Assembly (NCBI RefSeq): GCF_001006005.1
Contig: NZ_CP011254.1
Location: 4,216,001 to 4,280,000, forward strand
Origin: Serratia fonticola
GTDB taxonomy: Bacteria; Pseudomonadota; Gammaproteobacteria; Enterobacterales; Enterobacteriaceae
Direction of reading: 5' to 3'
DNA: 64,000 nucleotides
Below, piece by piece: positions 17,282 through 23,888 of this stretch (the stretch's first letter is position 1; every line of letters begins with the position of its first letter). Made by a program: the position numbers and the translations under genes. The notes beneath the pieces are model-generated. The model searched no databases. It was not told the DNA's origin and saw only the letters and a program-made list of their open reading frames with translations.

Positions 17282-17395
17282 ACTATCAGCGTTCAACCTC
17301 GTTTTGCGAGTTGACTCCAGAGGTTGCACGCAGGTAATTTTAACCACGTTCAGCTTGTAGTAGGTTTTGCTCATGTTTTGTCCAGGATGACCGAC

Positions 17396-18328
17396 ATGAA
17401 AAAACCTACCCCTACTACGCATGATGCGATTTTTAAGCAGTTCCTCACCGATCCCGAAACCGCCCGCGACTTTCTGGAAATGCATTTGCCGCCAGATTTG
17501 CTGCAAAGTTGCGATCTGAATACGTTAAAACTAGAGCCAGGTAGTTTTATCGAGCGCGACCTGCGTGCTTATTACTCCGATGTGCTTTACTCGCTGAAAA
17601 CCGGTAAGGATGACGGCTATGTCTATGCTCTGATTGAGCACCAAAGTTCGCCCGACAAGCATATGGCATTCCGTTTGGTACGTTATGCCATTGCCGCAAT
17701 GCAGCGCCATCTTCAGGCGGGTCACGATCGGCTACCATTAGTTATTCCGATGCTCTTTTACCACGGACAGATCACACCTTACCCGTATTCGATGAGTTGG
17801 CTAGAGGAGTTCAGTGACCCAGAATTGGCCAGGCAACTTTATGCGGGACACTTTCCTTTAGTTGACGTTACCGTCATTCCCGACGATGAGATCATGCAAC
17901 ACCGCCGTATGGCCATTCTGGAGCTGTTACAAAAACATGTGCGCCATCGCGACCTGTTCGAACTACAGGAACGACTGGTCACATTATTGTTGGCCGGATA
18001 CACTACTAAAGAACAACTGATATCGTTGATTAACTATATGCTGCAGATGGGGAGTACGACCAAACCGGAGAGACTGCTCCGTGAATTGGCCAGACGCGCG
18101 CCGCAGCATGAGGAGGAATTGATGACTATTGCAGAATATCTCGAGCAGAAAGGTTTCGATAAAGGTATAGAGAAAGGTATAGAGAAAGGTATTGAGGAAG
18201 GGCGAAAGGAAGGGCGAGAGGCCATCTTGAAGATAGCGCTCTCCATGCTGGCTAAGGGCTTCGATCACGCCATAGTCATACAGCTGACCGGCCTTTCAGA
18301 AGAAGAGCTGGCGCAAATCCACCACTAG
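17396..18328 (+). CDS. Rpn family recombination-promoting nuclease / putative transposase
   Basis: 310 residues from ATG 17396, which has AGGA 8 nt upstream; longer in-frame starts exist (17324, 17387). It closely follows E. coli RpnA-type proteins: HDAIFKQFLTDPETARDFLEMHLP, LKLEPGSFIERDLRAYYSDVLYSLKT (PD-(D/E)XK catalytic D) and YALIEHQSSPDKHMAFRLVRYAIAAM (E-x-Q). Rpn proteins are DNA endonucleases that promote RecA-independent recombination in E. coli; their real role may be phage defence or genome plasticity. The C-terminal tail carries KGIEKGIEKGIEEGRKEGRE, encoded by three 12-bp tandem units at 18161-18196, typical of the variable tail of the family. It has no ends resembling an insertion sequence. 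It sits between ghxQ and the oppositely oriented xdhABC, as though it had landed there. Confidence 0.85.
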   Translation: MKKPTPTTHDAIFKQFLTDPETARDFLEMHLPPDLLQSCDLNTLKLEPGSFIERDLRAYYSDVLYSLKTGKDDGYVYALIEHQSSPDKHMAFRLVRYAIAAMQRHLQAGHDRLPLVIPMLFYHGQITPYPYSMSWLEEFSDPELARQLYAGHFPLVDVTVIPDDEIMQHRRMAILELLQKHVRHRDLFELQERLVTLLLAGYTTKEQLISLINYMLQMGSTTKPERLLRELARRAPQHEEELMTIAEYLEQKGFDKGIEKGIEKGIEEGRKEGREAILKIALSMLAKGFDHAIVIQLTGLSEEELAQIHH

Positions 18329-23103: not shown

Positions 23104-23208
23104 TGTTACTTGATTCGCTAATAAATAATGTGTTGCATGTTAAATTGCGCTGGGTTAATAATGATTTCGAACTAGGTTGTTTTATATTAATTAATAAAGG
23201 AGCTGTTT

Positions 23209-23586
23209 ATGAGAGTTATTGATAATACTATGCTTGATCAAATTTCTGGCGGTCGAGGGAATAATGGTGGTGATCGGTCGGATAACGGCGGTCGCAATAA
23301 CAACAAGGGAAGAGGCGCGTCCACTAACTATGGCGGGCAGGCCAATGGCTTTGTCGGCAATTCATCTCCCGGTATGGATGCCAATTGTGTCGGTAGCCTT
23401 GCCTCTGGCGCTTTCGCTGGGGCGATTGGCGGTTCGCGAGGTGGCCTTGGCGGTGCAGCCGCAGGAGCTGCTATCGGTGCTTTGGGCGGGATTAATGGTT
23501 GTGTCAATACGGGCAATGGCGGTGGTGGCGGAACGGGTAGCAATAGCAGCTGTGGTGGAAGTTCAGGTAACAGCTGTAGCAGGTAA
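23209..23586 (+). CDS. Candidate class II microcin precursor (double-glycine leader, Gly-rich)
   Basis: 125 residues. Residues 1-15, MRVIDNTMLDQISGG, are a textbook double-glycine leader (hydrophobic residues at -12, -7 and -4, GG at -2/-1), as in microcin V and H47 precursors exported by CvaB-like peptidase ABC transporters. The predicted mature 110-residue peptide is about one third glycine. A hydrophilic Asn/Gly/Arg-rich stretch (16-58) is followed by a GxxxG-rich apolar core (about 62-97: GSLASGAFAGAIGG, GLGGAAAGAAIGALGG) and a Gly/Ser tail. Four cysteines (60, 98, 115, 123) could form two disulfides, one flanking the core. AAAGGAG precedes ATG 23209. No precursor-processing exporter gene is nearby. 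Alternative: a Gly-rich surface or contact-dependent peptide with the same export route. Confidence 0.62.
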   Translation: MRVIDNTMLDQISGGRGNNGGDRSDNGGRNNNKGRGASTNYGGQANGFVGNSSPGMDANCVGSLASGAFAGAIGGSRGGLGGAAAGAAIGALGGINGCVNTGNGGGGGTGSNSSCGGSSGNSCSR

Positions 23587-23654: not shown

Positions 23655-23888
23655 ATGATGATTAAATCAAATTTTTTATATAGCATATGGATTTTTGTTC
23701 TTGTATTATTCATTATTAACCCTCTGTTTTATTGTGTTGGCATTTTAGCTGTTTCTGTCATCGAACTCCCTTCATGGCTTACTAAGACAATTCTTGTATT
23801 CGTTATACCTTTAGGTTGCTACCGTTTGATCGATCTGGTTTACAACGCGGTGTGTAAGATAGTGACCCGAATGTCGAAAGAAAAATGA
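23655..23888 (+). CDS. Small membrane protein, candidate microcin immunity protein
   Basis: 77 residues, AT-rich codons unlike the flanking operons. Two hydrophobic segments, about 7-34 (YSIWIFVLVLFIINPLFYCVGILAV) and 41-65 (LTKTILVFVIPLGCYRLIDLVY), and a basic C-terminus (CKIVTRMSKEK) predict a two-span inner-membrane protein. It begins 68 nt after the glycine-rich precursor, same strand, with GAGGG 7 nt before ATG 23655, and is followed by a terminator. Size, topology and position are those of class II microcin immunity proteins; there is no recognisable sequence family. The immunity function is inference. Confidence 0.6.
   Translation: MMIKSNFLYSIWIFVLVLFIINPLFYCVGILAVSVIELPSWLTKTILVFVIPLGCYRLIDLVYNAVCKIVTRMSKEK

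Follow-up and report, generated by a model that had tools for sequence, protein, structure and literature searches.

The window, by which we mean the whole stretch of 64 kb analysed here, spans bases 4216001-4280000 of a single-contig Serratia fonticola genome of 6,000,511 bases. It carries an open reading frame for a short precursor with a double-glycine leader, followed on the same strand by an open reading frame for a small membrane protein (Table 1). One flank of the locus has a YahO-like gene together with a molybdopterin dehydrogenase set; heparinase/alginate lyase-like genes make up the other. Elsewhere in the window, an open reading frame at 17324-18328 encodes a YhgA-like putative transposase (Transposase_31).

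Table 1. Features of the putative microcin locus, in window positions.
Feature	Position	Strand	Basis
Shine-Dalgarno sequence AAGGAG	23197..23202	+	Six bases 5' of the precursor ATG
Putative microcin precursor, 125 aa	23209..23586 (stop included)	+	ATG at 23209, sequence and homologues
Double-glycine leader MRVIDNTMLDQISGG, residues 1-15	23209..23253	+	GG, hydrophobic -4/-7/-12; cleavage predicted
Asn/Gly-rich stretch, residues 16-37, G36-A37 at its end	23254..23319	+	Alignment A2, published McpM sites
Glycine-zipper core, Cys60 to Cys98	23386..23502	+	Alignment, GxxxG count
Gly/Ser/Asn-rich tail, residues 99-125, with Cys115, Cys123 and a CSR end	23503..23583	+	Alignment of 27 precursors
Two-span membrane protein, 77 aa, probable immunity protein	23655..23888	+	Starts 68 bp past the precursor stop

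Counted from the predicted G15|R16 site, the leader has I, L and I at -4, -7 and -12. Leaders of class II microcins are described as 15-18 residues long, with a GG or GA end and hydrophobic residues at exactly these positions (PMC11494933). A scan for double-glycine leaders at ORF starts, in six frames of the whole window, gave ten rows with five distinct ORF ends, among which only the one at 23209 combines an ATG with an upstream AGGAG. The predicted mature peptide has 110 aa and 9.84 kDa, inside the class II size of about 5-10 kDa; its glycine content, 33%, is above the 12-26% published for class II microcins. Precursor residues 56-100 hold nine GxxxG motifs against a mean of 3.75 after shuffling (a fraction of 0.0012 of 5000 shuffles reaches nine), and cysteines are found at positions 60, 98, 115 and 123. 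An earlier note on this DNA had described a 15-residue double-glycine leader, a 110-residue mature part with a GxxxG-rich core, a strong Shine-Dalgarno sequence and a small two-span membrane protein downstream, all of which are borne out. The four cysteines that it counted are there as well, its two-and-two pairing of them being putative; the number of cysteines varies from 1 to 5 among 27 aligned precursors. No promoter-like site was found for the precursor gene, and the best match to a Fur box (11 of 19 bases of the consensus) is equalled by 95% of shuffles.

One protein search returned 13 homologous proteins of the precursor at E<=0.001, and the best named homologues come from S. fonticola. 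A second search scored its best 8000 candidates; among the homologues listed by the two, the name microcin is absent and any name given is hypothetical or uncharacterised. The same genome holds a full-length paralogue at 3711826-3712173, accompanied by two tandem two-span genes. A profile (A1) built from the window peptide, eight of the 13 homologues, this paralogue and the homologue of the sister genome G004, without microcin S, matches 26 of 392 genomes of the family and two of seven of the genus. Scanning the genome contigs gave a single locus (L017), and 72,556 plasmid records, from which the same or very near genomes may be excluded, gave no match to the window peptide. The aligned relatives have in common the leader, the Asn/Gly-rich stretch, the glycine-zipper core, as a rule between two cysteines, and the tail, which terminates in C-x-W or C-x-R in 25 of 27 precursors. 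Leaders included, four cysteines occur in 13 of the 27, three in nine, two in two, five in two and one in one. Purine-rich sites resembling the Shine-Dalgarno sequence of the window likewise precede the ATGs of the relatives. A profile search of the PDB is headed by microcin E492, at no better than E 0.01, and unrelated chains follow at 0.07-0.1: a lead, short of evidence.

Profile A1 also matches a precursor in genome G256, at E 1.2e-12. We recognise that locus (L028/L055) as microcin S, a microcin proven by experiment, by the features published for mcsS of E. coli G3/10 (PMC3316575): its product has the published 120 aa and 11.67 kDa, and both mcsS primers match exactly. The genes there follow in the order precursor, 65-aa ORF, 216-aa CAAX-protease homologue, HlyD-like gene and C39-ABC gene. 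Since the window-type and microcin S-type profiles are both shallow (Neff about 1.8) and glycine-rich, and such profiles can inflate scores, we read with caution their alignment by hhalign, at 98.2% and E 3.5e-14 over 112 columns, nearly the whole length. The direct comparison of the two precursors is weak (33% identity, E 2e-4 on the basis of a single comparison). By our judgement of the sequences, the order of leader, cysteines and tail should weigh as much as the profile scores in favour of the kinship.

The two systems have homologous precursors, each with a leader, an Asn/Gly-rich stretch, four cysteines that follow one another alike and a CSR end, and in both a small two-span ORF lies downstream of the precursor; the exporter McsB is 59% identical to an exporter of the window genome, encoded near 618k. 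In contrast, microcin S is encoded by a plasmid operon with an exporter and McsI of its own, neither of which adjoins the window locus. McsI, the 216-aa CAAX-protease homologue, confers immunity to microcin S (PMC3316575). It has no homologue in the window genome at E<=0.001, and immunity of this kind is a mark of the microcin S cluster and need not be one of the peptide type. As a query, microcin S hits 130 plasmid records, none above 80% of the query.

A further likeness, by published positions only, is to McpM, the microcin PDI of E. coli-25 (PMC5311971), which has cysteines at 57, 90, 109 and 118, against 60, 98, 115 and 123 here, a double-glycine site and a GA pair near residue 36. The cysteines of microcin S (57, 90, 109, 118) and its glycine sites (17-18, 26-27, 35-36) coincide with the reported McpM positions. 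Inhibition by McpM depends on its first two cysteines, which match Cys60 and Cys98 of the window precursor, and not on its last two; two-step cleavage, use of OmpF, control by OmpR and dependence on proximity are features described for microcin PDI (PMC5311971). The Asn/Gly-rich stretch of the window precursor is placed where McpM carries a second leader, with G36-A37 as a possible second cut. Cleavage after A37 is predicted to yield a peptide of 88 residues; known class II cores have 60-90 (PMC10233263). As the GA site is missing from the paralogue and from L014 in alignment A2, we only infer this second cut.

Our preferred reading, at a probability of roughly 80%, is that the window locus encodes a class IIa microcin on the chromosome, of the microcin S / microcin PDI type, along with the immunity protein for it. 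The earlier proposal of a new class II microcin is supported; the peptide would not be a new type, since it groups with microcins S and PDI. On this reading, the type is extended to a Serratia chromosome.

Exporter genes are not found beside the window precursor, the nearest C39 matches being far off. The window genome holds six such matches. Two of them (618k and 738k) are CvaB-type exporters whose triad positions, by alignment, have Cys, His and Asp, and each adjoins an HlyD-like gene; at about 0.62 and 0.74 Mb, they are unlinked to the peptide gene at 4.24 Mb. By the earlier note, its proposal would be refuted if no genome with the gene had a C39-peptidase exporter; this did not come about, given the two with the triad here and the exporters next to relatives described below. 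The two exporters and their adaptors match NCBIfam bacteriocin-exporter and HlyD models with scores short of the curated cut-offs; for TolC, two matches lie above the TIGR01844 cut-off. The 738k exporter is 60% identical to exporters whose operons also encode peptides related to that of the window. Linkage to an exporter cluster recurs at nine loci of eight other genomes (two in G202, one each in G282, G198, G026, G251, G256, G230 and G408), with no more than about 1.05 kb between it and the precursor. In G282, precursor, two-span gene, adaptor and exporter follow in a row.

At E<=1e-100, an exporter occurs in 21 of 27 precursor-positive genomes (the 26 matched by A1 plus G004; G135 among them has two fragments only) and in 11 of 21 precursor-negative ones, hand-picked rather than random, so that co-occurrence with the precursor is only weakly better than in these negatives. 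As for the exporter-less positives, the precursors of G148 and G385 contain stops, those of G265 and G391 miss the normal leader and tail, that of G091 has SGD in place of SGG, and that of G062 looks intact, with no exporter at E<=1e-100.

We rejected as exporters the 866k C39 protein, which is without the catalytic Cys and matches HlyB above cut-off, and the 509k, 2734k and 3497k paralogues, in which Asn aligns with the Asp of the triad and which fall in another cluster. The latter three, 81-90% identical to each other, belong to closely related islands (L009 5942-15477, L010 and L011, at ~2734k, ~509k and ~3497k) with DsbA-like, HlyD-like, MacB-like and TolC-like genes, plus one that looks like a ketosynthase gene, so labelled from its sequence. 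At ~866k (L012), the HlyB-like exporter without the C39 cysteine adjoins a 599-aa protein of RTX-like appearance.

The product of the 77-aa ORF has two hydrophobic stretches in a simple Kyte-Doolittle scan. It is part of a loose family of two-span proteins (A3), to which the unnamed 65-aa ORF between mcsS and mcsI also belongs and McsI does not. Across 392 genomes, two-span and precursor matches occur together in 19, the precursor alone in seven and the two-span gene alone in six; once the nine genomes with sequences in A3 are set aside, the counts are ten, seven and six of 383 (P 8e-12), and the pair is adjacent on the same strand in nine of those ten, G251 being the exception. Of 27 further loci with a two-span gene, seven gave no precursor on the upstream side, L096, L098 and L099 among them being weak or interrupted matches; at three others (L082, L089, L095), the precursor alignment contains a stop. 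The two-span protein of L094 (G334), with no precursor found upstream, is very similar to the 65-aa ORF of microcin S. Compared with its counterpart in G004, the 77-aa ORF shows a dN of 0.092 and a dS of 0.317, and 12 residue changes where random mutation gives a mean of 20.5 (a fraction of 0.0002 of 5000 draws is as low).

Two-span genes occur in three of the seven genus genomes, at three loci. At locus A, that of the window, the precursor is intact in the window genome (G000); in G004, the flanks are conserved, the core that should lie between them is missing and the frame is interrupted, with the 77-aa gene open. Locus B (3.71 Mb) has an intact precursor and two two-span genes in G000; in G004 no precursor was detected and one two-span gene is left, within a longer open frame. 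At locus C (4.83 Mb) it is G004 that has the intact precursor. There, G000 keeps a precursor relic with stops next to an open two-span gene, and G001, where the common flank is shown on one side only, a precursor frame shortened to 43 codons, again with an open two-span gene. In total, the two-span gene is open in seven of seven locus-by-genome cases and the precursor intact in three of seven, and for this reason we hold the 77-aa protein to be probably the immunity protein of the window microcin. At locus C, the two-span genes of G000 and G004 differ by 21 changes against 29.8 expected; part of the purifying selection at loci A and C may predate the loss of the toxin, since the G000-G004 comparison cannot date that loss.

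The two sister genomes seem to have lost such weapons and kept the protection. Orphan microcin immunity genes are known from E. coli plasmids (PMC12546727). A wider interpretation, which we offer tentatively and at somewhat less than even odds, is that the S. fonticola group owns a chromosomal set of three microcin S-type loci, whose toxins were repeatedly lost and whose two-span immunity genes were kept; the small ORF of microcin S would then be an immunity gene itself, perhaps the ancestral one, to which McsI was added later. If true, each strain would carry a weapon at some of the loci and just the shield at the rest, and the state of each strain at the three named loci makes for a testable cross-protection matrix.

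The two-span protein might instead be an accessory, like McpA of microcin PDI, and immunity to a genuine microcin come from elsewhere. In favour of this, mcsS and mcsI have the homologous 65-aa ORF between them, and immunity was obtained with mcsI by itself (pAZ13; PMC3316575); McpA is described as a microcin PDI synthesis gene (PMC5311971), and we infer that it corresponds to the 65-aa ORF. Against it, the two-span gene stays open after loss of the precursor, the seven orphans among the 27 further loci (three weak or interrupted) included. Moreover, it is the sole small gene between precursor and exporter in G282, and a homologue of McsI was not found in six of ten genomes searched, that of the window included. 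We consider an accessory role unlikely, and see in the conserved two-span ORF a concrete candidate for an immunity function that, in class II microcins, is not locatable by conserved sequence features (PMC10233263).

The broken loci of the sister genomes, the unlinked exporter and the lack of a detected promoter-like site would also suit a decaying or silent relative, whose precursor is no longer secreted or active. Yet the window copy is open and has its leader, Shine-Dalgarno sequence and conserved cysteines, a second full-length copy exists at locus B, and exporters are present in the genome, which makes decay an improbable explanation.

If the locus does encode a working microcin and the immunity to it, one or other of the CvaB-type ABC transporters would recognise the leader and cut after G15, and the peptide would leave by way of the HlyD-type adaptor and TolC. 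The 88-residue form may arise by a further cut near G36-A37. A disulfide between Cys60 and Cys98 may hold the glycine-zipper core together. Related bacteria would take up the peptide via an outer-membrane protein, after which the core would insert into the inner membrane; in that of the producer, the 77-aa protein would block it. Exporters of the CvaB kind also carry other peptides, and a secreted double-glycine peptide could have a signalling, surface or structural role. Its length, its cysteine-flanked glycine zipper, the adjoining membrane protein and the homology to microcin S all argue against such a role, to which we give little credence.

In S. marcescens, putative class II microcins are reported in 96% of genomes, and 17 microcins as confirmed (PMC13101503). 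They are like the window peptide in genus, class, exporter type and a membrane protein as presumed immunity, and belong to another species; the likeness is drawn from their description, and the main text of PMC13101503 has no mention of fonticola, MccPDI, MccS, microcin S or PDI. One class IIb microcin, Sf H47, is reported in S. fonticola CP033055 (PMC11634061). It shares with the window peptide the species, a class II leader and an adjacent immunity gene, and is set apart by description, as a siderophore type without the four cysteines (PMC11634061). With these two reports published, the window gene is a further member of a known microcin class. Among the papers listed in searches judged by title and start of abstract, mostly open-access ones, none is on a class IIa microcin of S. 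fonticola.

Chromosomal location and a Gly/Ser-rich C-terminus would fit a siderophore-type class IIb microcin, which we reject as very improbable on the CSR end and the four cysteines, given that class IIb calls for a serine-rich C-terminus with serine as the last residue and for at most one cysteine (PMC11634061). An HlyC-type modification gene had no match in the genome, though the control gave none either. Microcin V resembles the window peptide in its 15-residue double-glycine leader and CvaA/CvaB/TolC-type export (PMC5311971). The longer mature part, four cysteines and Asn/Gly-rich N-terminus of the window peptide set the two apart, again by description.

Related background includes the cinful pipeline (PMC9746304) and plant-associated microcins with PDI-like tails (PMC13174018). 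Within the family, the motif YGGQANG recurs in A2 rows, P0020, P0049, P0054 and P0056, despite differing cores and tails, a pattern that suggests an exchange of modules. Close to the exporter locus of G198, we noted a second double-glycine-type precursor of another kind (L052 1981-2295). In Erwinia sp. P7711, a protein of 177 aa (P0018) has precursor and two-span protein in one open frame, as if fused.
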